DNA from: a virus
Reading direction: 5' to 3' (one strand)
DNA: 64,000 nucleotides
IMG/VR virus record: IMGVR_UViG_3300046524_000229
Coordinates: 43,135-107,134 of that record
The notes beneath the pieces were generated by a model. That model was not told the origin of the DNA and did not search any database. It saw only the letters and a list, made by a program, of their open reading frames with translations. The position numbers were made by a program, and so were the translations under genes. Numbering within the stretch: position 1 is the first letter of the stretch; every line of letters begins with the position of its first letter. Below, piece after piece: positions 7,114 through 61,345 of this stretch.

Positions 7114-8736
7114 TTAGATACGTCCAGCTATAAATTCAGACATGAAACGCGGCGTCTGCGTATCGAAGCCCACAACATCAAGCATGTTCGGATCCTTGGG
7201 ATCTGCGATGCTGAAGTCATTGACTGCCATACCGACTACGATCAGCTTTGCATCAGGCTTGTTCATGCCTTGGCGATACTTTTGCATGGCTTGGAACGGA
7301 TGCTGTCTACCAGCATACGTCTCGTTGTCCGTATAGATACAGAACGCATCCACGTTCCAACGGTGTGCAAGCGCATGTTCAGCAGGCAAAGCACAGTTCG
7401 TAGAACCGAAGTTCCAGTCATGCGCCTTGGTGGTAGCCGATTCAAGCGTATCGTGCTTCGTGATGTTCAGCGGCTTGAACGTCTTAGCGAAGCCCAACAC
7501 TTCAGTCCAAGGTTCCGTACGAGCCGAAACCATAGCCATCAGTGCAGCACCTTCACAACACGTCAACTGCGGAACACCCGGAATAGCCGAACCCATTGAA
7601 CCTGACACGTCAAGCGCCAGAACAATATTCTTACCAGACGGTTCCACCGCGTCGAACGAAAGGTAGAACGCCGCTTCAAGCGTATCCTTGACGGTATTAT
7701 CCGGGGTCCAAACCAGCGAACCCTTATCGCCCTTGCCTTGAGAGTAGATCTTCTTAGCAACGATAATCGACATCGGATGCAGACGTTCCTTACGAAGCTG
7801 TTCCACATCCAGAAGCTTGGTCGTGACCAGCTTACTCGTTTCCGAGAAAGGCTTGATCAGTCCAACAGCCGTCAGCTTGTTCAGGTTACGAACCAATGCA
7901 TTCAGGCCCATATGCGGAACGAGTGCTTCCCAAATCTTCGGGTCATTCTTTTGCTCATTAGGGATCATTTCATGCGTCAGCTTGTGATCCTGAATCAGGT
8001 TGACAAGTGCGCTGCCGCTAGCAGTCTTGGCTTCTTCAACTGCAATCAGAAGCTCAGGAACCTGGTCACCCAGAGCAAGTGCTTCCGGACCCTTCACGAT
8101 GTACTTGTAAAGGTTTTGACGAACCGTGTCTTCACCAGGCTTCACATGCGACAGACGCATAACGTCCTTGTGCGACCAACCATCACGTTGCTTGTACTTC
8201 ACAACCTGATAGGCGAGATTCGTCACAGTCTTGTCCGCATACCACTTCTGTGCAACGTTCTTAAGCGAACGACCCCAACCTCTAAGTCCATTCGCAAATG
8301 CAACGAAGTGCAGGAAGTGCGTGCCAGTACGAGCCACGAGGTTCACTTTGTCCTTGGCATACAGTTTCGTAGCCACGTCACCGTGAGTGAAGACCAACGC
8401 CATAGCAAGCAACGCGTAGTCATTGTTCTTGGCACGACCAGCCTGGCTGATCTCAACGATACGGTCGACCACAACCTTACCATTCGTTTGGATCAACTTG
8501 ACGATATCGTCGACCTTGGCCTTGGTGATATCTTTCTCGGACTGATAGAACGTACCACCGCTCGTACCGATGATCAGGAAACGATCGAGCTTCTGCAGAG
8601 GCGTTACCTCAAACACAAAGCCGCCAGCGTTGTTCTTTACTTGAGCGACAGAAGCATTACCAGCCGGTTTGGTCTGAACCGTAGTCTTTGCTTGAGTGCG
8701 GGTGTTGGTATTGTTAGAGAGGGAATTGAAAGACAT
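7114..8736 (-). CDS. rsr: TROVE-domain protein (Ro60/Rsr-like RNA-binding protein)
   Basis: Related to Ro60/Rsr, a ring of HEAT-like repeats that binds Y RNA and misfolded RNA ends, capped by a von Willebrand A domain. Residues ~40-330 look like the helical TROVE ring (LQKLDRFLIIGTSGGTFY near the start is characteristic). A VWA domain follows with a MIDAS motif DVSGSMGS (~residue 377) and a downstream TDNETYAG acidic segment. 540 aa is typical of bacterial Rsr. The start has an AGGAG ribosome site. In bacteria Rsr works with Y RNA and PNPase in RNA quality control. A terminator sits directly upstream, and a seven-member Y-RNA-like array lies about 1 kb further upstream on the same strand. Confidence 0.93.
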   Translation of the reverse strand: MSFNSLSNNTNTRTQAKTTVQTKPAGNASVAQVKNNAGGFVFEVTPLQKLDRFLIIGTSGGTFYQSEKDITKAKVDDIVKLIQTNGKVVVDRIVEISQAGRAKNNDYALLAMALVFTHGDVATKLYAKDKVNLVARTGTHFLHFVAFANGLRGWGRSLKNVAQKWYADKTVTNLAYQVVKYKQRDGWSHKDVMRLSHVKPGEDTVRQNLYKYIVKGPEALALGDQVPELLIAVEEAKTASGSALVNLIQDHKLTHEMIPNEQKNDPKIWEALVPHMGLNALVRNLNKLTAVGLIKPFSETSKLVTTKLLDVEQLRKERLHPMSIIVAKKIYSQGKGDKGSLVWTPDNTVKDTLEAAFYLSFDAVEPSGKNIVLALDVSGSMGSAIPGVPQLTCCEGAALMAMVSARTEPWTEVLGFAKTFKPLNITKHDTLESATTKAHDWNFGSTNCALPAEHALAHRWNVDAFCIYTDNETYAGRQHPFQAMQKYRQGMNKPDAKLIVVGMAVNDFSIADPKDPNMLDVVGFDTQTPRFMSEFIAGRI

Positions 8737-19753: not shown

Positions 19754-21151
19754 TCAGATTGCTGCGTTGCGACGTACATCGCTAAAAGACTGGTCACGAA
19801 TCAAAACACCATTCGCATATACAGGTTCCAACAGATCTACACGACCCATAGCATTTTCACGACGAATCGTGGTCAACACTCCGTCATTATCTTCGACTAG
19901 TGCAAGATGTCCGCGCTTGCTGGTCTTGCCACCAGCGATCGGATCCTTGTACACGTCCAGCCATTTACCATCGACACAGACAGACGATGCCTTCATTGCA
20001 AACGAAAGCGTGTCACGGTCAAGCTTTTGATGCAACGCTCCGCCCATGCCGAATGCAACGTTCTCGGCGCTGAATCCAGCCAACTTAAGAGCAGCAAGAA
20101 TTTTCTCGATGCTTTCAGGGTTTACACCATCACCTTGAATGACGCGGACCTTGTTCAGGACCTTAAAGCCTTTCGAGTTAACACTGTAACCGAACGCATC
20201 GGCCAGTAGCCCGACCACCGTAGAAACGACAGATACAGGTTCACCAGAATCTGGACGAACCACAAGAGTACCAGGTTGGGCCAGGACAAAGTCACGAAGC
20301 TCTCCGCCCCAGATATTTTTAACAGCGTTAAAGATATCGTAGCTATCACTGACAACAGCGAATAGGCCTTGGCCGAATTTTTCGCACATATTTCTATAAG
20401 CGTCAGCTTCGTGCGTACGCCCCCAACTAGTAATAGTGGAATGCTCAGCAGCGGGAATAGAATAACCCAATCCATTGTAGTCAGCTCCGTAAAATTGATG
20501 TGCATATTCCAGGCCCAACATAGTGTCGGTACCCATGAAATTAATCAGGTGAGCTGCTCCCGCGATTGCCGACGTTTCGGTCGAGCTTGCCCCACGTGCG
20601 CCAAAGTCATGAAGCTTGAAGGGCATTTCGTCGAGCGGCTTATCGCACGTATCGACAAGGTACTTGAAGATGATCTCTTTACAGTGCCTCGAAATTGAAG
20701 CCACCGTAGTACCGAACCACGCTGCACGAAGGATCTGGGTTTCGAAGAACGAACCGATCCAAGGCATTTCTTCGTCAGTAGACATGACATCCACTAATAT
20801 ATTCGACATCGGTACTTGCAAGCCTTCCGGGACTGCGCGGATCACCATCGGAGCATGACCACCATGCACTTTTACCAGGCGATCAAATTCTTTCTTAGCG
20901 AAGGGCTCCCCGTGAATAGAATTGACCTTCATTGCGTACTCGACATGCTCAGCGGTGATTGCGTTGAGCAAGTAATCCTTGATGTAACCTTGCAGACCAA
21001 AGAACGTGGAGTTCTTGATTCCGAACCCGCTGTTGTCCTTGCGTGCTTCTACGTAAGAGTAAAGACCGGTAGTGCCTTTCGGGTATTGGAGAAAATGTGA
21101 ATGCTTGTAAGAGTCAGCATTCAGGAGGGGATTGATTTTAAAGTTTGACAT
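19754..21151 (-). CDS. nadV: Nicotinamide phosphoribosyltransferase (NAMPT)
   Basis: Converts nicotinamide plus PRPP to nicotinamide mononucleotide, the first step of two-step NAD+ salvage. The N-terminus LLNADSYKHSHFLQYPKGT with SYVEARKD and FFGLQGYIKDYL is diagnostic. Further family blocks: HDFGARGASSTETSAIAGAAH (about 185-205, catalytic His/Asp/Arg region), VRPDSGEPVSVV (about 300) and FGMGGALHQKLDRDT. 465 aa is full length. The next gene downstream in the genome (upstream on this strand) encodes the second enzyme, so the pair forms a complete NMN-route module. Confidence 0.95.
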   Translation of the reverse strand: MSNFKINPLLNADSYKHSHFLQYPKGTTGLYSYVEARKDNSGFGIKNSTFFGLQGYIKDYLLNAITAEHVEYAMKVNSIHGEPFAKKEFDRLVKVHGGHAPMVIRAVPEGLQVPMSNILVDVMSTDEEMPWIGSFFETQILRAAWFGTTVASISRHCKEIIFKYLVDTCDKPLDEMPFKLHDFGARGASSTETSAIAGAAHLINFMGTDTMLGLEYAHQFYGADYNGLGYSIPAAEHSTITSWGRTHEADAYRNMCEKFGQGLFAVVSDSYDIFNAVKNIWGGELRDFVLAQPGTLVVRPDSGEPVSVVSTVVGLLADAFGYSVNSKGFKVLNKVRVIQGDGVNPESIEKILAALKLAGFSAENVAFGMGGALHQKLDRDTLSFAMKASSVCVDGKWLDVYKDPIAGGKTSKRGHLALVEDNDGVLTTIRRENAMGRVDLLEPVYANGVLIRDQSFSDVRRNAAI

Positions 21152-21203: not shown

Positions 21204-22352
21204 TTAAATACCGACCAGCTTGCGAATAATGGAAAGATGATCTTCGTAGATCTTATCTGCCATCTTCAGGATTTCGTCGTACGTGAAGAACTTGGCATCT
21301 GCTGCGTCGTCTCCAGCTTTGATCTTGGGGATTCCAGCTTTCTTATCCGCCCGGTCAAGATCAAAGAGAAAAGCATGGGTAAAAGTACGCCCACGCAGAC
21401 TGCGATTAGGATGGTCAAAAACAACGCCTTCGCCCATAGAACCAAGCAACAGATTAGGAGGAAGATCAAGGCTAGTTTCTTCTTTGAGTTCACGAAGCGC
21501 CGCATCTTTAAGTCTCTCATTCTGTTCTACGAATCCGCCTGGCAATGCCCATAATCCTTCACCCGGCGCGGCTTTGCGCTTCACAAGGAGAATGTGTCCA
21601 GCCTTCTTCACTACTGCATCTACAGTAACAAACGTAGGTGCATACGGAGCTGCCTTCCAAGCTTCCTTATACTTCTTGACCATCTGATACTCACGAGACA
21701 GACGGTAGTATTCCGGAGACTTGATGAAGTCTTTCAGAAAGTCGAAAGTGTACGTAGGAACAAGGCTTTTCAACAGATCGATGAATCCTGGCTTTTCGAA
21801 AATGATTTCCCGAATCGACGTAGCGTCAAATCCGAGTTTCACTTCATCTACCGGAACATAGTCATATTGCGGGAACAGATCGAGATAATACGAACTCTCG
21901 TCTTTCTTATTGCCGACAATCGCAACCTTGATAGGTTTACGTTTTTCAACAGGAGTTGAAGCATCGTGCAAAGGGGTGTAGTATGCGATTTTTTCCTGAA
22001 CTTGCTTTGCCCAGTCATCGTCGGAATACATATTATCAACCAAAGCTTCGGTATTAAACCGACCTTCGTTGATAGTGCCGATCTCTTCCTGCGTAAGAGA
22101 CATAGCAATCATCGTCGCACGTTCATCGTACGTGAAAGGATTCTTGATGGTGCGGGGGGCGTTTGCAGACCCAATCAATACAAGAACACGATCAGCGATC
22201 AGCATTCCTTTATTGACGAGAATCTGGTGACCAACATGGTAGGGTTCAAAGCGACCCATTACTACTGCAAGATCATATTCTTTGGGTTTACGTTCCGTAG
22301 AAATGATTTCATACTGCTGCACGATTTCGTGCTTAAGGGACATAATTGACAT
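21204..22352 (-). CDS. nadM: Bifunctional NMN adenylyltransferase / Nudix hydrolase
   Basis: N-terminal nucleotidyltransferase domain: GRFEPYHVGHQILV (residues ~32-45, the HxGH motif) and SIREII near 205, making NAD+ from NMN and ATP. C-terminal Nudix domain (residues ~240-382): GGFVEQNERLKDAALREL continuing EETSL, an intact Nudix box (G-x5-E-x7-REUxEE). Such fusions occur in Synechocystis and Francisella NadM-Nudix and in phages. Together with NadV it regenerates NAD+; the Nudix half may remove ADP-ribose. A start at 22343 is also possible. Confidence 0.93.
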   Translation of the reverse strand: MSIMSLKHEIVQQYEIISTERKPKEYDLAVVMGRFEPYHVGHQILVNKGMLIADRVLVLIGSANAPRTIKNPFTYDERATMIAMSLTQEEIGTINEGRFNTEALVDNMYSDDDWAKQVQEKIAYYTPLHDASTPVEKRKPIKVAIVGNKKDESSYYLDLFPQYDYVPVDEVKLGFDATSIREIIFEKPGFIDLLKSLVPTYTFDFLKDFIKSPEYYRLSREYQMVKKYKEAWKAAPYAPTFVTVDAVVKKAGHILLVKRKAAPGEGLWALPGGFVEQNERLKDAALRELKEETSLDLPPNLLLGSMGEGVVFDHPNRSLRGRTFTHAFLFDLDRADKKAGIPKIKAGDDAADAKFFTYDEILKMADKIYEDHLSIIRKLVGI

Positions 22353-31710: not shown

Positions 31711-31719
31711 CTTATACCA
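31711..31719 (-). promoter_or_regulatory. Extended -10 promoter of the six-paralogue operon
   Basis: - strand TGGTATAAG, followed by AGAGAG...CTCTCT-TTTTTT, an attenuator-like hairpin before the first ORF. Confidence 0.7.
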
Positions 31720-39440: not shown

Positions 39441-39516
39441 TGGTAGGAACATCGGGGCTCGAACCCGAGACCTTCAGATTTAGAATCCGCTGCTCTGCCA
39501 ACTGAGCTATATTCCC
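39441..39516 (-). tRNA. tRNA with CTA anticodon (amber suppressor type), CCA encoded
   Basis: Acceptor GGGAATA/TGTTCCT (one G-U at each end), D arm TAGCTCAGTTGGCAGAGC, anticodon arm GCGGA-TTCTAAA-TCTGA (27-43 G-A mismatch), T arm CTCGG-GTTCGAG-CCCCG region canonical, discriminator A then CCA. With the standard 7-base loop the anticodon is CTA, reading UAG. A shifted 5-base loop is possible but unusual. Confidence 0.72.
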
Positions 39517-42892: not shown

Positions 42893-43303
42893 TTAAAGTA
42901 GCGGTAACCCACCGGTCACCGTATCTATCTTATCTTCAAAATCCGGACCTACTGCGATGCAAGTATTAGTAGGTATTCCGTGAAATTCTGTAAGACCAGA
43001 ATCTGTAATCAATGAAGTTATGATACCAGCTTCTTTTGCCTTTGCATAGAGTGCGAGTAGTTCTTCTTCGGAATTTACATATACACACACTTTTTTGAAG
43101 TTGCCCAGGAGCCAGTCATGCATACGGTTGTCGACTTTCAGTCGAAACTCTGCAGTGACTTCTCCGTTGATCCGGTCGTTTTCTTTAATGTAATGACCTT
43201 GATTCAAAATCGCTGCTAGACTTGCATGGGCACCTTGTGCCACAGCTTTTCCGGTGCGCATTTTGAGGTCTTTTCTAATTACAATAATTTGCTTGTGACT
43301 CAT
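42893..43303 (-). CDS. Peptidyl-tRNA hydrolase 2 (Pth2)
   Basis: QIIVIRKDLKMRTGKAVAQG continuing AHASL is the signature start of Pth2 (R-K-D-L-x-M-x-x-G-K-x-x-A-Q-x-x-H-A). A later ITDSGLTEFHGIPTNTCIAV matches the second signature (D-A-G-x-T-x-x-x-x-G-x-x-T-V-x-x-I-G-P). Frees tRNA from prematurely released peptidyl-tRNA. 136 aa, slightly longer than the family owing to an insertion. Sits in the tRNA cluster. Confidence 0.88.
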   Translation of the reverse strand: MSHKQIIVIRKDLKMRTGKAVAQGAHASLAAILNQGHYIKENDRINGEVTAEFRLKVDNRMHDWLLGNFKKVCVYVNSEEELLALYAKAKEAGIITSLITDSGLTEFHGIPTNTCIAVGPDFEDKIDTVTGGLPLL

Positions 43304-46138: not shown

Positions 46139-46147
46139 CTTATACCA
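46139..46147 (-). promoter_or_regulatory. Extended -10 promoter
   Basis: - strand TGGTATAAG; the first transcribed bases can fold GGAGAAAAATTTCTCC, then tRNA-Leu(TAA). Confidence 0.7.
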
Positions 46148-52069: not shown

Positions 52070-52078
52070 CTTATACCA
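52070..52078 (-). promoter_or_regulatory. Extended -10 promoter
   Basis: - strand TGGTATAAG just upstream of the structured RNA. Confidence 0.7.
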
Positions 52079-52098: not shown

Positions 52099-54522
52099 TT
52101 ACAAACGCGGATCCAGCGTCTTTTCTTCATTCAGTTGCGAGATCATTTTCACAACCAGTTCAGTCAGAGCAGGGCCATTGTCTGCTGTCAGCATTGCCAG
52201 TGCAAGATCGTGTTCCTTGATAGAAACCTTCAGCTTACCGCCGACACGTTTTTGACGACACAGGGCTTCATAACGGTTCTTGTAATCATAGCCATACACA
52301 AGAGTCAGGTAATTTTCATTCCGAACCTTCATATACGGTGCAACATCTGCCGTACCGTCAAGAGGCTTGATTACAAGGCCTTCCATCTTTTCATCAACGG
52401 TTTTACAGTTGAAGAAAGTCTTTGCATTTTCCAAAACCTCTTTATCGTTTTCAAGGTCGATGATTACGATGTCGTCCTGGTTAACCAAGTCAAAGGAATC
52501 TGCAATCTGGAATTTGTCACCAAACACCTTACCGTCAACCTTCAGAATAGAGAACGCACTGTATTCCGGACGGCTTTCCTGAGCATAAATATCAAGGGTT
52601 TCGCCGAATATCTTCAGATCAACCTGACGAGCTTCGACGTCGATTTTTGCCTTGAATCCCAACTTGGCAAATTCCTCATCGTTAGCCAATGCATCCAGTT
52701 CGTAATGTACCAAACCTTCATACGCACGGAACTGTTCGTCAACCAGACTTTTACCAAGGGTCGTCCACGGCAGAAGTTCACCGTCAAGAATCAGTTCTTC
52801 TTGCCAGAAGTCAATACTTTCCCCTTCGTACTTAGCAAGCAATTCCTGAATCATAACGGTGAGGTCTTCTGTCATGCGAATCTTAAAGCCATTACGAGAA
52901 ACCAGGAAACACTCTTCCGGTTTACCGCGATACAGATATGCCTGACAACGTGAACCCATGTACTTCGGTTGAAGCATGACCCGCTTCGTTCCACGACTTT
53001 TGAAATACTCAAGTCCAGCTTCAAGACTTTCGATTTCAGTGTTAGTCGACGGAGCAGGGGCCATCGTTCCTGAAATGTACTGAACTCGGTTTGCGATAGT
53101 ACGCTTCAGAAATCTCATATCTTCCGGCGACAGTTTGTAGTCGTAGATATTGAACGACTTCTGCGGAGGTGCTATCGGAGTCGTCAAGAAGTTCTGAAGA
53201 CCCTTGTGAACTGTTACCTTTTCAGCTGCCTGAACCGAATCAAACCAGTAACGATTTCCTTTATAACAGAAAGCAGTAAGCTTGCCGCCATAAACAGCCC
53301 CAGTATCGAGAAACACCTTGTTACGATGTTCCAGTTTGGCTGCATTGTGAGCAACGTGCCCAAACACATGCAAAGGAAAATTCCCAACAGCTTCCTTGAA
53401 AATAAACTCATAAGCCTTCCGGTAGTCTTCTTTTCGATCACCGTACAGATTGCGCTGAGCCTTAAGTGCTGCAGAATTCATCTTACCCAAATACTTCTGC
53501 TCGCACGGAGCATGGGTTACGTAAACTGTACGGACTTGGTTGCCGTGAATCTTCAAGAACGGAACAGAACAGCGATCGAACAAGTCCACAAGCTCTGCTG
53601 CCAACGTTTCGTCTTTCAACAGAACGTCAAGCGAACTCATGTACTTCGATTCCATCTCCAGATCAGGATTTTTGATTTCACCCTTGATACGCTTCACCGC
53701 ATACGACTCGTGATTGCCGTGGAGAATAATGCCACCGTCGGTGTGAAACTTCCTGGCGAAGGCAATTGCTTTGGCAGTATCATTGCCTTTGTCAATGTAA
53801 TCACCGACAAGAACATTGATGCTATTTGCACCGACCTTAGCTACAAGCTGTTCAGCAGCTTCCGTGTGTTCATGTACATCTCCGATGATATTCACCTGCA
53901 TGTCTCGACCAAGATAGAGCTGAGTAGCTGCGTATTTGCCCAAATCTTCGATTTCAACTTCCAGATCTATCCACTTTTTGGCGTCTCGTTCACGGATACG
54001 AATACAATCATCGTGATCTTTACGACCGAGATTCGGAAGGACGCTTTGTTTGAATCGCTTGGCGCTCGATTCTACAACCCGTTTTTCTTCCTCATTCGAT
54101 TCCGACCAGTACTGATAGTTCGGATATTCAAACGTAATCAATTCAGTACGATATTCGTTTTCTTCAGCGAGTTTACGAATTTCCTTTCGAAACGTATCAT
54201 TCATACCAGTAGTATCAACGATTACGAATTCACTGTTGATCGGGAACGCAATCGCCGCTTTAAACTTCGCCATCATCACGTTGAAAGCTGCTTCCGAAGC
54301 TTCCATCATGACCGGGGCGTAACGATGGAGACTCAAATCATCCAAGACGTTCATTCGTTCAGCATCAGAATTCAAGTTTACAACCTTCGAACCTGCAGCA
54401 AGTCCTGCTTTCATCAACTGAAAGTTCAACGCAAGTTCGAACTGTTTCGAGAATGTGGTTTTACCGCACATCGAAGGGCCAACCAAAATGAAGACTGTGT
54501 GGAGTTTAGTTTGAATTTTCAT
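52099..54522 (-). CDS. pnkp: Pnkp: RNA 5'-kinase / 2',3'-phosphatase / ligase
   Basis: Bacterial-type three-domain RNA repair enzyme. Kinase: P-loop LVGPSMCGKTTFSKQF (residues ~13-28). Phosphatase of the metallophosphoesterase fold: NIIGDVHEHTEAAE (~210), VLVGDYIDKGND, ILHGNHESYA. Ligase: adenylation lysine in MLQPKYMGSRCQAYLYRG (~515) with later ELILDGELLPW and EGLVIKPLDG. 807 aa is close to Clostridium Pnkp. It heals and seals broken tRNA ends. The bacterial enzyme needs Hen1 for ligase activation, and Hen1 is the adjacent upstream gene, 9 bases away. Confidence 0.95.
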   Translation of the reverse strand: MKIQTKLHTVFILVGPSMCGKTTFSKQFELALNFQLMKAGLAAGSKVVNLNSDAERMNVLDDLSLHRYAPVMMEASEAAFNVMMAKFKAAIAFPINSEFVIVDTTGMNDTFRKEIRKLAEENEYRTELITFEYPNYQYWSESNEEEKRVVESSAKRFKQSVLPNLGRKDHDDCIRIRERDAKKWIDLEVEIEDLGKYAATQLYLGRDMQVNIIGDVHEHTEAAEQLVAKVGANSINVLVGDYIDKGNDTAKAIAFARKFHTDGGIILHGNHESYAVKRIKGEIKNPDLEMESKYMSSLDVLLKDETLAAELVDLFDRCSVPFLKIHGNQVRTVYVTHAPCEQKYLGKMNSAALKAQRNLYGDRKEDYRKAYEFIFKEAVGNFPLHVFGHVAHNAAKLEHRNKVFLDTGAVYGGKLTAFCYKGNRYWFDSVQAAEKVTVHKGLQNFLTTPIAPPQKSFNIYDYKLSPEDMRFLKRTIANRVQYISGTMAPAPSTNTEIESLEAGLEYFKSRGTKRVMLQPKYMGSRCQAYLYRGKPEECFLVSRNGFKIRMTEDLTVMIQELLAKYEGESIDFWQEELILDGELLPWTTLGKSLVDEQFRAYEGLVHYELDALANDEEFAKLGFKAKIDVEARQVDLKIFGETLDIYAQESRPEYSAFSILKVDGKVFGDKFQIADSFDLVNQDDIVIIDLENDKEVLENAKTFFNCKTVDEKMEGLVIKPLDGTADVAPYMKVRNENYLTLVYGYDYKNRYEALCRQKRVGGKLKVSIKEHDLALAMLTADNGPALTELVVKMISQLNEEKTLDPRL

Positions 54523-54531
54523 TGTTGATCC

Positions 54532-55833
54532 TTACTTGTTTTTCGTTACGACAAGCATCGTCGAAGTATGAACGCCATTTACTGCATCGCCGATACCTTG
54601 GCCGATGGTCGAAATTGCATGGGACTTAGAGATTTTCCAGAGCCAATCGTAGAAGTCCTGTTCATTCATTTCCCACTTGTGATCATCGTGACGGAACTGA
54701 TCTTCTGTCATCAGATAATTCACATTGAAAGCCTTGTTCGGAACCGTGATAACCAACTTGTTAAAGTCAGTCTTCAGAACGGCATCAACAAGCTGTTTTG
54801 CATCTTTAAGAGGAATGTGCTCCAGAACTTCTGTGATGAGCACGTCTGCTCCGCTAAAGAGCAAGGAACACTCATCAATCGATTCGGGAGTTGCAGCATC
54901 TCGGAGAATAACGTTTTCGACTTCTCGTCCCTTGAGTTTTTCAAGCATGTTCTCGCGGAGTTCGTCATCCGCTTCAAACGCAAGGACTTGTTCATATTTC
55001 GAACTGAGCGGGAGCGTGTAATTGAGTTCACCGCACCCAATGTCAATGAGTGTCGCTCCTCCTCCCAGATGGGGGAAGATAGCTTCTTTACGCTGAGCAA
55101 GGGTGTCACCGTGCCAGAGGTCGATCGTGTCCGTATCAAGCAGCGATTTGTTCTTAAGAAATGTGTCACGATTTGAGAATACATTCCGTTTGAAGAGGTA
55201 ACGAATGAAGTACGGTGCATTGATACGATTTATCGCAGCAATATACTTCTCGACGATATCGCCCTTGAGATTGACGTAAATGCTTTTTGTCGAAACGCAG
55301 AACATCAGGAAAATTACCATTGCCGCATTGAGCATTTCGTGAACTGTAGGCCCCGAGATAGTGACCTTGTACGCACAGCCTGCGATATGTTCGGCTACAA
55401 AGCTGTACCCATTGTCCAACCCGAAGGAACCATTGAAGTGTTGATTCAGATGATTCAACATGCTGGCGCTGCGAATTTCGACCGTAGTTTCCAGGTACGC
55501 ACTCCAAGATTCCGAAGTGTCTTCTTCCTGATGTGTTTTAAACGCTGTTGCCAAACAGTTCGTAATCAGCGAAATCGGCAAGTAGGGAGACGCATAGCGG
55601 GTACGGTCAAGATATTCAAACTCTTGGCCAATGCCCTCCGCAAAAGAACAGTTCTGAGGACTGTCTTTAAACCAAAGCCGAAAGCTTTGATCATCGGCTC
55701 CGAACCATCCATACGCCATACCTTGACGGATCGATTTCTTGTAGGGCTCTGCACTTTCACGAATCGTTGCAGGGTTCTTGGAAATGATCCAGGAAAACTT
55801 GGGGTTCGAAGACCCGATAGTAAGTACGGCCAT
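54532..55833 (-). CDS. hen1: Hen1: RNA 3'-terminal ribose 2'-O-methyltransferase
   Basis: Bacterial Hen1 with both parts: an N-terminal Pnkp-ligase-activating domain (residues 1-~235, LTIGSSNPKFSWIIS, YLDRTRYASPYLPISL) and a C-terminal SAM methyltransferase (GGGATLIDIGCGELNY, motif I, ~257-272). The metal-site signature is present: TEVLEHIPLKD (E-x-x-E-H) and QFRHDDHKWEM downstream (His). It methylates the 2'-OH at the break before ligation so the same site cannot be cut again. 433 aa, full length. Operon with Pnkp. Confidence 0.93.
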   Translation of the reverse strand: MAVLTIGSSNPKFSWIISKNPATIRESAEPYKKSIRQGMAYGWFGADDQSFRLWFKDSPQNCSFAEGIGQEFEYLDRTRYASPYLPISLITNCLATAFKTHQEEDTSESWSAYLETTVEIRSASMLNHLNQHFNGSFGLDNGYSFVAEHIAGCAYKVTISGPTVHEMLNAAMVIFLMFCVSTKSIYVNLKGDIVEKYIAAINRINAPYFIRYLFKRNVFSNRDTFLKNKSLLDTDTIDLWHGDTLAQRKEAIFPHLGGGATLIDIGCGELNYTLPLSSKYEQVLAFEADDELRENMLEKLKGREVENVILRDAATPESIDECSLLFSGADVLITEVLEHIPLKDAKQLVDAVLKTDFNKLVITVPNKAFNVNYLMTEDQFRHDDHKWEMNEQDFYDWLWKISKSHAISTIGQGIGDAVNGVHTSTMLVVTKNK

Positions 55834-55914: not shown

Positions 55915-56094
55915 TCAGAGATATTGATTAAGCGGACCAGCTGGGTCACGCATACGGGTAAACGTTGCCGAAGGTCCTTTGAACGAATCTTCAACATAGC
56001 CACAAGTTTTGCATTCAAACCAGATAGGCGTGTTTACAATCTTGGACTTTTTGTCCTCGCCGCATTCAGGGCAGTGTTCAAGAGCTTCAGTCAT
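55915..56094 (-). CDS. Zinc-ribbon protein, 59 aa
   Basis: ATG 56094 to TGA 55915. EHCPECGEDKKS and FECKTCGYVED make a four-Cys ribbon; typical of tiny phage proteins. Overlaps the next gene by 4 bases. Confidence 0.6.
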   Translation of the reverse strand: MTEALEHCPECGEDKKSKIVNTPIWFECKTCGYVEDSFKGPSATFTRMRDPAGPLNQYL

Positions 56095-56324: not shown

Positions 56325-56512
56325 TTCAAAACTCCTGCAATAATCCACGAAATCATGGACAGAATAGAAGCAGGTACGAATGCGAACAGATTAGTAAGTC
56401 CAGAAAGAAAACCATGACCGTCATCGAAAGGCCAGAATAAAGCCCAGCTGAAACTAAGAATAGTTATCAACGTAGGAATCATCCACCATTGAAAATGAAT
56501 AGTGATAGTCAT
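56321..56512 (-). CDS. Small membrane protein, 63 aa
   Basis: Two transmembrane helices (WMIPTLITILSFSWALFWPF and LFAFVPASILSMISWIIAGV). ATG 56512 overlaps the nucleotidyltransferase stop (ATGA). Confidence 0.6.
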   Translation of the reverse strand: MTITIHFQWWMIPTLITILSFSWALFWPFDDGHGFLSGLTNLFAFVPASILSMISWIIAGVLK

Positions 56513-57516
56513 AACTGCTTTTCCCATTCTTCAAATACACGTTTAACATGAGCTTCGACTTGTTCTGAAGTCATCGACTCAATTCTCTTCAGAAACGCTT
56601 CCCGGTCGTTGCCTCGGTAGTCCGCCATAAATCCGCCAAGCTCTTTACCTTGTAACCCTGTCCAGAGGCCGACGAATTCACCGTTGAACTTCTTCTTGAC
56701 TTTTTCGACTCTGAAGTAATCAAACGTGGCGTGGATAAATTCCATTGCGACGTCTGGACGTTCTTTTGCGGCGATAAGAAATCCATGATCCCTCGGCATA
56801 CGTTCGGACGGAAGATTCTTGTCTTTCATCCATTCCAGAAAATCCATATACGTCTTGCGTTTCTTATCCCGTACACGGCCAACAGCGTTTCGATTCTCTA
56901 GTTGGTAATTCCACGTAGTGAAGAATTTGCTTTTACAGGTGAAAACAAAAATGTCTTCGAGGTTACGAAAACCAGCGTTGTACTCAAACATGCTGTAGCC
57001 CAGAAGATGAAGAGCCACAGCGAAGTCTTTCGTAATGCAAATTTCTTTGACAAGTTGAGTATCTACAATGTATTTATACCACAGACCATCGTGGCCGAAC
57101 TTAAGTCCAACGCCATGAGCAGTCTGGCCGATAAGATTGCCTAAATCGTTATAGGCAAAGTACTTCAAAGCGAAGTCGAAATCTTCGTCAGGCACGGTGA
57201 TGAAGTCGATTTGAAAAATAGCCCGTTTCATCAACAGGGCTGTGATTTCCAAACCGAACGATAAGACGTTACCGTTCTGATGATATTCAGGAGAAACTAA
57301 AGCCTTCTCCACAAACTCCCGAAGCTTATCCATCGGGATGCCTGAAATCAGAATGTCCAAATCTCCAAAGCTTTCCTTTTCTTCATATGCAGGAATAACT
57401 GCAACCTTAGCATCGGGAAAAGCCTGTTTCAAAACATCAGAAGTCCCAGCAGCTACGTGTTCATAGTACTTTTTTTCTAATCTGACTGTTTGAAGTTTGA
57501 GTGCATTACCGCCCAT
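56509..57516 (-). CDS. Nucleotidyltransferase-fold protein, 335 aa
   Basis: Pol-beta-type catalytic pattern: KESFGDLDILISG (GD-x-D, residues ~47-59) and FQIDFITVPDEDFDF (third acidic residue, ~102-116). The rest is helical, without an obvious second domain. Could act as a DNA polymerase X-like, CCA-adding-like or antitoxin-type enzyme; the context of RNA repair and tRNA genes favours RNA, but this is inference. Confidence 0.65.
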   Translation of the reverse strand: MGGNALKLQTVRLEKKYYEHVAAGTSDVLKQAFPDAKVAVIPAYEEKESFGDLDILISGIPMDKLREFVEKALVSPEYHQNGNVLSFGLEITALLMKRAIFQIDFITVPDEDFDFALKYFAYNDLGNLIGQTAHGVGLKFGHDGLWYKYIVDTQLVKEICITKDFAVALHLLGYSMFEYNAGFRNLEDIFVFTCKSKFFTTWNYQLENRNAVGRVRDKKRKTYMDFLEWMKDKNLPSERMPRDHGFLIAAKERPDVAMEFIHATFDYFRVEKVKKKFNGEFVGLWTGLQGKELGGFMADYRGNDREAFLKRIESMTSEQVEAHVKRVFEEWEKQL

Positions 57517-59010: not shown

Positions 59011-60714
59011 TTACGCTCTCATCTTCATCAACATATCATTCACAGCTTGCTGCGTAATGCCAGGCTTCACTTCTTTTACCTGACCCCAGTTAAAACCAAT
59101 TTCACCTTCCACGCCAATCGGAAGGTCCAGCCAATCGAAATGCTCTACGGGCCATTCGTTCATGTAATAGAACGCTGTCTCGATCACTTCTGCTGCACGT
59201 TCAATCGGTACTTCGAATTCTACCGAATCATACACGGTACAGATACTCTTACAACGTGGATCGATCTTTTGAATCGCCTGGTCCAAATGTGCAAACGTTA
59301 CAAGACCAAGCGTAGACGTTGCACTTTGAATACGAACGTTTTGTGCATTGCGCAGCGATGCGTTATATGCTGCGGTACGCTTGAACGCAGGCTGAGCAAC
59401 ATACTCGTGCTTGTACTGACCAAACGGAGTCCATACTTTCTGGTTCAACAGTGCCATCTGATGCGATTCTTCAATGTAGTCTTTAACGCCGGGATAAGCG
59501 TTGAAGTACATATTGACCAGTCGCTCTGCCTCACTCTTTTCTAACTGCAACTGCATTGCAATACCATTCACTGACGAGCCATATAAAATTGAAAAAGTTA
59601 AAACTTTTGCAACTTGTCGCATACGCTTGTACTCTTTCTTCAGAGGATGCGAATCATCTTCCAGGATATGGATATAGTCTTCGTACGGCACACCCATCAT
59701 CGCACTTGCCGAAAATGAATGGAAATCCAAACCTTCAGCAATTGCACGAAGCATATTCTTGTCTTTACAGATAGCTCCTAAGATTTTTACTTCTGCTGAC
59801 GAGAAATCAAAAGCGATGAACACATTACCGTTAGCAACAGTGTAGCACTCTCGGACATTATAACCATGCTTTGGACGGGGAAGCTGAGTTAAATTGGGTG
59901 AATCTGCGGTTATTCTAAAACTGCTAGTGCCAAACATGTTGTAACTAGGATGAATACGTCCATCCGTACGAACGAAATCTTCTACATACGTTTTAATAAA
60001 AGTATTATGGACGCTATTGATATCTTTTCGTTTAGCCATATCAGCTAAAAACTGTTTTTCAGGATCCGGGGCTGTATATTGATTAGCTAACGGATTCAAT
60101 CCAGCCAACGTCAAAAGCGCAGCACCATCAGTTGCGTCATCGCCAGACTTAGTCTTGAACGGTGCTTCAAGTCCTAGTTCACCATAAAGATACTGAGACA
60201 CTTCAACGCCAGAGTCTAGATTGATTCGCTTACCAATTGCACTGAAAATCTTCTCATCAAACTCTGCTACTTCCTGGACCATCTGCTGCGAGATTGCCCG
60301 GTTCCTAGCTATATCATAAAGCATCCCATTAATTTCGAGATTAATAATGAACTCATGACAAAGCATTTCCGTCTCTAGAACGGACTTGATAATACCAGGT
60401 GCTGTTATTTTCTTAGGTTGCCCATTTTTCTGAGGCATCAATAACTCTTGTGGCTTTACTAAAGCAGGCCACAATGCAGTAAGAACTTCTGAAGTTACTA
60501 TATTATCAATTCCTGCATACAACATCAAATCAGAATAGTTAAAGTCTTCATATGTACGGTAGATTTTCTTCTCTTCAGAAATCTCAACTACCGTCGGTTC
60601 TTTCTTCTTTCGAGCCTTTTTACTAGCCGGGGCTTCTACAGCTTTTTCGACAACCTTGTCTCCTAGTACTTCTGCGATAGGTTTTTTGGATTTAGGTACA
60701 ATACGTTTAATCAT
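59011..60714 (-). CDS. DNA polymerase A, C-terminal fragment (Exo III motif + polymerase domain)
   Basis: Begins with a ~45-residue basic tail (SKKARKKKEP), then YEDFNYSDLMLYAGIDNIVT, the Exo III motif (Y-x3-D) of family A 3'-5' exonuclease, then thumb and the polymerase motifs: A VFIAFDFSSAEVKILG, B RQVAKVLTFSILYGSS, C CTVYDSVEFEVP. Complete palm/fingers, 567 aa. The missing part of the exonuclease is on the gene at 61329-62582. Start ATG overlaps the stop of the inserted HNH-type gene (ATGATTAA). Confidence 0.93.
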   Translation of the reverse strand: MIKRIVPKSKKPIAEVLGDKVVEKAVEAPASKKARKKKEPTVVEISEEKKIYRTYEDFNYSDLMLYAGIDNIVTSEVLTALWPALVKPQELLMPQKNGQPKKITAPGIIKSVLETEMLCHEFIINLEINGMLYDIARNRAISQQMVQEVAEFDEKIFSAIGKRINLDSGVEVSQYLYGELGLEAPFKTKSGDDATDGAALLTLAGLNPLANQYTAPDPEKQFLADMAKRKDINSVHNTFIKTYVEDFVRTDGRIHPSYNMFGTSSFRITADSPNLTQLPRPKHGYNVRECYTVANGNVFIAFDFSSAEVKILGAICKDKNMLRAIAEGLDFHSFSASAMMGVPYEDYIHILEDDSHPLKKEYKRMRQVAKVLTFSILYGSSVNGIAMQLQLEKSEAERLVNMYFNAYPGVKDYIEESHQMALLNQKVWTPFGQYKHEYVAQPAFKRTAAYNASLRNAQNVRIQSATSTLGLVTFAHLDQAIQKIDPRCKSICTVYDSVEFEVPIERAAEVIETAFYYMNEWPVEHFDWLDLPIGVEGEIGFNWGQVKEVKPGITQQAVNDMLMKMRA

Positions 60715-61345
60715 ATTTCTTACGATAATTAATTGTGGATAAGGCTTTTTCTAAAGGCCAGTTATTTTTCAAACGAGTATGTAGAGTTGTAACTGAAATG
60801 CCTAATTTTTCAGCCCACTGTAATTGTGTCATGGTTTCGTTTTTGAAAGTGATAATTTTCGTAGAACGTCTGTTATTACTTTGTTCTTTATTATCGGACC
60901 ATTTACAATTAGCTTTACAATAATTACCATTTACATCTATACGATCTATGGAAAGTCCCTCTGGCCTTTCTCCCATATCTTTTAGAAATGCTTCAAATGA
61001 TTTCCACCGTTCATCTACGGATATACCCCTTCCACCGTAGTTTGGATAATTATCTTGAGCCTCATCCGTACAGCGAGCCCACATACTTATCCAAGTTTTA
61101 TACGTCTTGGTTTTACTTAGTCCATGCGTCTGACTTCTGATAACAGTTAATTCTTTAGCCAAACAGCCACAAGAGTTACTATCTCCACCTCTAAGTGAAG
61201 CTCCTGATATAGATTTAATATTTCCACAACTGCATTTACAAATCCAAAAAGGCCGTTTAGAAACTCGTTCGACGTCTATACCTGTAACGGTTAACCTACC
61301 AAAGACTTTACTTGTTAAGTCGATGTATCTACTTTTCATCTTCAA
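60707..61345 (-). CDS. HNH-type homing endonuclease splitting DNA polymerase A
   Basis: FGRLTVTGIDVERVSKRPFW, a CKCSCGN...SCGC zinc cluster, then LSIDRIDVNGNYCKANCKWS with EQSNNRR (a common phage HNH/AP2-associated motif) and a C-terminal HTH (TQLQWAEKLGISVTTLHTRL). Overlaps the upstream fragment by 17 bases and the downstream fragment by 8. AT-rich like other mobile genes here. Probably the agent that split the polymerase. Confidence 0.8.
   Translation of the reverse strand: MKMKSRYIDLTSKVFGRLTVTGIDVERVSKRPFWICKCSCGNIKSISGASLRGGDSNSCGCLAKELTVIRSQTHGLSKTKTYKTWISMWARCTDEAQDNYPNYGGRGISVDERWKSFEAFLKDMGERPEGLSIDRIDVNGNYCKANCKWSDNKEQSNNRRSTKIITFKNETMTQLQWAEKLGISVTTLHTRLKNNWPLEKALSTINYRKKYD

Follow-up and report, generated by a model that had tools for sequence, protein, structure and literature searches.

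The 64,000-nucleotide (nt) stretch of viral DNA analyzed here (the window; positions 43135–107134 of the 107,134-base virus record IMGVR_UViG_3300046524_000229) carries two adjacent genes, one encoding a Hen1 methyltransferase of 433 amino acids (aa) and the other an 807-aa fusion of a kinase, a metallophosphatase, and an RNA ligase (Pnkp-like), which very probably form a phage operon that repairs broken RNA and protects it afterwards. Genes for a large terminase, a tape-measure-like protein, and tail fibers lie elsewhere in the same record, which therefore represents a tailed phage. Hen1 lies directly upstream of the Pnkp-like gene, with a gap of 9 nt between them (Table 1). An initial annotation of this DNA had placed all three Pnkp domains next to a complete Hen1, and this is borne out by the open reading frames (ORFs), together with Pfam and fold matches to all four enzymes.

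Predicted activities and transcription of the gene pair

The Hen1 protein matched the Pfam family Hen1_N (PF22032, 1.4e-51), and its residues 3–431 aligned to CgiHen1 from the Pnkp1-Rnl-Hen1 crystal structure (Protein Data Bank (PDB) 4xrp_C, 2e-26). Its AlphaFold model (mean pLDDT 89.7) matched 4xrp_C with a Z score of 33.3 over 391 aligned residues at 25% identity, with a fold match spanning residues 2–431, while fold-search matches ranked below this pair of entries covered the methyltransferase domain alone. The N-terminal domain also matched the classic ligase-activating domain 4e6n_B (Z 15.2). Across 28 homologues, E335, E338, H339, and H385 were invariant and aligned with the corresponding motifs of classic Hen1. 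Based on these alignments, the protein is a full-length Hen1 with a complete predicted ligase-activating N-terminal domain. This completeness argues against Hen1 acting alone to protect the 3′ ends of phage RNAs, with the ligase protein as a bystander; although plant HEN1, which acts in this way on small RNAs, is a relative of the methyltransferase domain, Pnkp is co-conserved in nearly all Hen1 loci, including nearly all Hen1-bearing viral contigs, and is retained even ~6 kb away from Hen1 in one phage (L031). We thus regard such a stand-alone role as highly improbable.

For the Pnkp-like protein, Pfam matches occurred in the order AAA_33 kinase, Metallophos (4e-9), and PNKP_ligase (1.6e-21). 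Its AlphaFold model was predicted with a mean pLDDT of 87.7 and a pTM of 0.58, and the relative arrangement of the domains is unsure because of the latter value. A phmmer search of the PDB with the kinase segment alone found no kinase, but the fold search did (4gp6). The ligase domain was closer in fold to CgiRnl (4xru_B; Z 37.1, 31% identity) than to the CthPnkp ligase (4e6n_A; Z 33.5), as was also the case in profile comparisons (E-value of 2e-63 for the Rnl branch vs 3e-24 for the CthPnkp ligase). Residues K21, D53, R56, and R112 of the kinase, D215, H217, D241, N270, H271, H337, and H389 of the phosphatase, and K520, E582, E714, K719, and K732 of the ligase were invariant in 23 homologues, in motifs that align with those of classic Pnkp.

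Overall, catalytic residues were invariant or nearly so among the 23 Pnkp and 28 Hen1 homologues, and all four active sites (kinase, phosphatase, ligase, and Hen1) are, judging from these alignments, intact. The initial annotation had asked whether a careful alignment would reveal the loss of catalytic residues; none was lost. Both genes are under purifying selection, with dN/dS values of 0.08–0.16 relative to relatives (calculated only for pairs with unsaturated synonymous sites). The idea that the two genes are decaying or inactive passengers can practically be dismissed: we found nothing in its favor, and it conflicts with the open reading frames, the intact active sites, dN/dS values of ~0.1, and the conservation of the genes in six related contigs.

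The gene pair also appears to be transcribed as its own unit. The window holds the motif TGGTATAAG in 14 places, against an expectation of 0.22, in each case on the coding strand, and every copy sits 24–313 nt ahead of an ORF. One copy precedes Hen1, where an alignment of the six related contigs revealed the conserved string TTGGTATAAG. Since the next copy follows Pnkp, the pair reads as a separate two-gene unit. TGGTATAAG is likely the phage's own promoter type, and the simplest reading of this pattern would be an extended -10 promoter driving a two-gene message of Hen1 and Pnkp. The operon had already been credited with its own promoter in the initial annotation, and this motif, rather than a sigma-70 promoter scan, now supports the claim: matches in that scan were no more frequent than in shuffled sequences. 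Further TGGTATAAG sites are found for example at 63652–63660, 46139–46147, and 31711–31719 (-), with no obvious -35 box.

Table 1 Features of the Hen1-Pnkp locus and of possible partner genes (window coordinates).
Feature	Coordinates	Strand	Remarks
Hen1	54532..55833	(-)	Predicted metal ligands E335, E338, H339, H382/H385
Kinase-metallophosphatase-RNA ligase fusion (Pnkp-like, 807 aa)	52099..54522	(-)	
Predicted 5′-OH polynucleotide kinase domain, residues 1-193	53944..54522	(-)	P-loop GPSMCGKT 15-22, D53xxR56, VDTTG 102-106, R112; Z 19.3 to CthPnkp kinase 4gp6
Predicted calcineurin-type metallophosphatase domain, residues 194-441	53200..53943	(-)	D215, H217, D241, N270, H271, H337, H389; Z 25.1 to CthPnkp phosphatase 4j6o
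Predicted ATP-dependent RNA ligase domain, Rnl type, residues 460-807	52102..53145	(-)	Nucleophile K520 (KYMGSR), E582, E714G, K719, K732
TGGTATAAG promoter-like phage motif	55902..55910	(-)	68 nt 5′ of Hen1 start codon; also conserved in five relatives
TGGTATAAG, next copy	52070..52078	(-)	Just past Pnkp stop codon; bounds Hen1-Pnkp unit
Zinc-ribbon ORF, 59 aa (CPEC...CKTC)	55915..56094	(-)	Directly upstream of TGGTATAAG before Hen1; probably separate gene
Possible partner: 335-aa protein, phage "DNA polymerase" family match, Pol-beta-like FGDLDI motif	56509..57516	(-)	Upstream of Hen1 in 5/5 close relatives
Possible partner: Thg1-family tRNA 5′-end nucleotidyltransferase	62665..63504	(-)	

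Proposed mechanism and its reach

In the mechanism we propose, a host RNase would cut tRNA (or another RNA) during infection, leaving a 2′,3′-cyclic phosphate or 3′-phosphate and a 5′-OH. The kinase domain would phosphorylate the 5′ end, the metallophosphatase domain would clear the 3′ end, and Hen1 would methylate the 2′-OH of the 3′-terminal nucleotide, while its N-terminal domain would activate the ligase domain so that the break is sealed. With a 2′-O-methyl group at the old cut site, a metal-independent RNase would then be unable to recut the RNA at this position. As is well established for RNase chemistry, such a modification blocks only RNases that attack via the 2′-OH (PrrC, colicin D/E5 type), and not metal-dependent PIN-domain tRNases. 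A role for the operon against anticodon nucleases is likely, and would extend to metal-independent RNases only.

Repair coupled to 2′-O-methylation, as predicted for this gene pair, is well supported. Wang et al. (2015) reported that Pnkp1-Rnl-Hen1 mends ribotoxin-cut tRNA in vitro and that all three proteins are needed, and RNA repaired by the Capnocytophaga complex in the presence of S-adenosylmethionine (SAM) was more resistant to recutting by colicin D (PMC4411300). By comparison with this homologue, the repair with immunity envisaged in the initial annotation appears likely, whereas its extension to other tRNA-cutting defenses would fail for metal-dependent PIN-domain tRNases and for RloC. 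The latter excises the wobble nucleotide, and has been proposed to defy phage repair (PMC2610378); ligation alone cannot undo this excision. RtcB was not found in the 107-kb record.

Use of the operon in counter-defense is suggested because of its phage setting, which includes a tRNA array, Thg1, Ro60, and NAD-salvage genes. Several points weigh against the proposed mechanism and its use in counter-defense. Identity to characterized homologues is only about 20–31%. The sequence evidence points to no particular target RNA or host nuclease and, on the host side, the nearest phage isolates, Salmonella phage Arash and Vibrio phage D69, share 42–47% of the terminase sequence. In addition, Bacillales carry cellular homologues, so the operon is confined neither to phages nor to anti-defense. 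PADLOC returned no defense-system match for Pnkp and, at most, a weak methyltransferase-like match for Hen1.

Alternatively, the pair may serve general RNA repair, mending RNAs of any kind (rRNA, tmRNA, mRNA, or phage tRNAs) that metal-independent RNases have broken, including through collateral damage from toxins or CRISPR, with anticodon nucleases not a specific aim. Known Hen1 complexes use a broad range of substrates in vitro, their in vivo substrates being described as unknown (PMC4411300), and cellular homologues are chromosomal, with WYL regulators and RlaP as neighbors, both consistent with such a broader function. The tRNA-rich and Thg1-bearing context of this phage circumstantially favors tRNA instead, so that we see general repair as a possible but distinctly less likely explanation. 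With a phage that carries this operon, infection and plaquing assays could open the question of which RNAs Hen1 repair acts on in vivo to testing.

Relatives and neighboring genes

In five related contigs (65–98% identity), the fused protein is also encoded with Hen1 directly upstream and the same neighbors, and more distant viral contigs likewise hold the fused protein and Hen1. Other arrangements include viral contigs in which parts of the module are reordered (L020 and L041), and a related phage (L036, 6354–10473) in which the Pnkp gene is broken inside the phosphatase domain by ~1.4 kb containing a 348-aa ORF on the opposite strand (7441–8487), which looks like an intron or an inserted homing gene. 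Hen1 was undetectable in Salmonella phage Arash, the nearest isolated phage by terminase, and Arash was not among the search matches. Two genes of this phage (L153, 3579–4715 and 17466–17918) are annotated as RNA ligase.

Beyond viruses, 84,980 bacterial and archaeal species genomes were scanned, and the best 80 of the resulting 105 loci were retained. These were mostly from Paenibacillus, Brevibacillus, Cohnella, and Listeria, and Hen1 was upstream of Pnkp in all 80. In 31 of these loci, the flanking sequence retrieved encoded a relative of RlaP, an RNA-repair nucleotidyltransferase, and in ~20 it encoded relatives of WYL regulators. The Bacillales RlaP-Hen1-Pnkp loci (e.g., L058 3841–4701; L156 8811–9569), which often include a pair of opposite-strand WYL regulators, apparently represent an RNA-repair locus without annotation so far. 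Hen1_N was detected in 2 of 299 Bacillota and 4 of 296 Bacteroidota genomes (even draw, with the center genome of each draw counted), and the class is therefore patchy overall. Relatives of Thg1 lie close to Hen1-Pnkp in three Paenibacillus loci. On a 360-kb plasmid of Paenibacillus thiaminolyticus (L155), Hen1-Pnkp is followed by a Thg1-family gene, and nucleotide-metabolism genes nearby suggest that this plasmid is a phage-plasmid.

Within the window, ARAGORN identified 20 tRNA genes and Rfam two more. The 335-aa Pol-beta-like protein encoded upstream of Hen1 had no Pfam match, and similarity to RlaP was undetectable by sequence comparison. Along with Thg1, it could in principle restore lost bases. 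A more far-reaching and rather doubtful scenario would combine these observations: the kinase-metallophosphatase-Rnl fusion and PF22032 Hen1 would constitute a third, as yet undescribed class of Hen1 repair machine, common in Bacillales chromosomes next to RlaP and WYL genes; in an old phage lineage of this class, RlaP would have given way to Thg1 and an end-restoring nucleotidyltransferase of the phage, so that tRNAs could be rebuilt, sealed, and immunized even after excision of the wobble nucleotide.

A Ro60-like protein encoded at 7114–8736 (-) combines TROVE and vWA domains and belongs to a family that, in other phages and bacteria, has been tied to the repair and quality control of RNA. 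No Y RNA scored above threshold in an Rfam search of the window; a weak YrlA (Y RNA-like) match at 9732–9807 (-) (23.3 bits vs a threshold of 69, E-value 0.35), which precedes the Ro60 gene by ~1 kb in the same orientation, may be due to chance or represent a divergent Y RNA. Adjacent genes for a nicotinamide phosphoribosyltransferase and a cytidylyltransferase-NUDIX protein (19754–21151 and 21204–22352 (-)) form an NAD+ salvage pair comparable to those of other large phages. A tRNA with a CTA anticodon (39441–39516 (-)), called tRNA-Pyl by ARAGORN, is a possible amber suppressor, and a TAG stop was found in 1 of 21 genes checked. Finally, DNA polymerase A is split (59011–62582 (-)) into a UDG/exonuclease part (61329–62582) and a polymerase part (59011–60714), with an HNH-type ORF between them (60707–61345) that is absent from this position in four other contigs (L002–L005).

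Comparison with known Hen1 repair systems

The "bacterial Pnkp-Hen1" label of the initial annotation holds for the identity of the genes and for the two-gene unit, but not for the standard type. On the NCBI models, the Pnkp-like protein reached 124.6 bits vs a cut-off of 750 for TIGR04075, on which classic Bacillota examples score 777–1345, and Hen1 reached 62.7 bits vs a cut-off of 340 for TIGR04074. The N-terminal domain of Hen1 belongs to PF22032 rather than PF12623 (Hen1_L), the family on which a classic Hen1 reaches 359.5 bits. Classic Hen1 proteins formed a long branch of the Hen1 tree, separated by a 100/100 split, and the window sequence belonged to a clade of ten viral sequences with no cellular members (99/97). 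The ligase tree likewise set the classic Pnkp ligases apart (100/100), and in it the Rnl-type ligases did not sort into fused and separate forms. A separate origin from classic Pnkp was weakly supported in the kinase-phosphatase tree (86/95), in which the entry L006_kp is a stray 75-aa ORF.

Because the domain layout and fold match classic Pnkp while the ligase and Hen1 trees group with Pnkp1-Rnl-Hen1, the system is, by phylogeny and predicted fold, a hybrid: its layout and its type of kinase and phosphatase are those of classic Pnkp, and its ligase and Hen1 belong to the Pnkp1-Rnl-Hen1 branch. Like the classic Pnkp-Hen1 of Clostridium thermocellum, it has a single kinase-metallophosphatase-ligase polypeptide and an adjoining Hen1, with shared catalytic motifs and the same Hen1-then-Pnkp gene order. 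These similarities could reflect an ordinary classic Pnkp-Hen1 acquired from a host. This origin is nonetheless very unlikely given scores far under both NCBI cut-offs, the different Pfam family of the Hen1 N-terminal domain, and a ligase and Hen1 placed outside the classic clades with full support.

The hybrid shares with the Pnkp1-Rnl-Hen1 system of Capnocytophaga gingivalis (4xrp/4xru) a full-length Hen1 family, an Rnl-type ligase, and four predicted activities. In C. gingivalis, however, Rnl is a protein apart from Pnkp1, the Hen1 gene lies at a distant locus, and the Pnkp1 phosphatase is a T4-like HAD enzyme, whereas here the ligase follows a kinase and a metallophosphatase in one polypeptide, and the neighboring gene encodes Hen1. 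The Bacillales RlaP-Hen1-Pnkp loci (L042–L119) are similar in their fused protein, Hen1, and gene order, with ~32–36% full-length Pnkp identity, but are cellular, often associated with RlaP and WYL regulators, and placed in another clade of the Hen1 tree.

Among phages, XacN1, RAS14, CM1, and Vibrio phages RYC and sm033 have large genomes and share Hen1 and ligase families with the window, but none encodes a fused metallophosphatase protein adjoining Hen1. XacN1 and RAS14 encode Hen1 and a separate ligase, while in RYC and sm033 the ligase is separate and Hen1 is fused to a T4-like kinase-HAD phosphatase (with a HAD_PNKP domain found in RYC). T4 Pnk/Rnl1 is likewise a phage-borne system for healing and sealing cut tRNA, but lacks Hen1 and the methyl mark, has a HAD phosphatase, and uses Rnl1, from a different ligase family (PF09511) for which neither the record nor the control genomes gave any match. 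Beyond T4-style tRNA repair, phages carry a machine predicted to mark mended RNA against renewed cutting by the same nuclease.

The initial annotation had named T4 Pnk/Rnl1 as the classical form of phage repair; Hen1 repair of this kind had also been reported before. XacN1 was reported in 2018 to encode PNKP and Hen1 (PMC5852040), although the gene named PNKP is a stand-alone ligase in our analysis; a putative Pnkp1-Rnl-Hen1 set was described in Borg elements in 2024 (PMC11208441); and a jumbo-phage survey covered RNA repair in broad terms, with a calcineurin-like phosphatase in few phages (PMC7824862). No published description of the fused hybrid (kinase-metallophosphatase-Rnl with Hen1) was found in our partial coverage of the literature. 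The hybrid class is invisible to the NCBI Pnkp and Hen1 models and has probably been overlooked in many genomes; two plasmid records label its genes "class I SAM-dependent methyltransferase" and "AAA family ATPase" or "metallophosphoesterase". Taken together, phage-borne Hen1 repair was already known from XacN1 and the Borg elements, and it is the hybrid arrangement that appears to be new.

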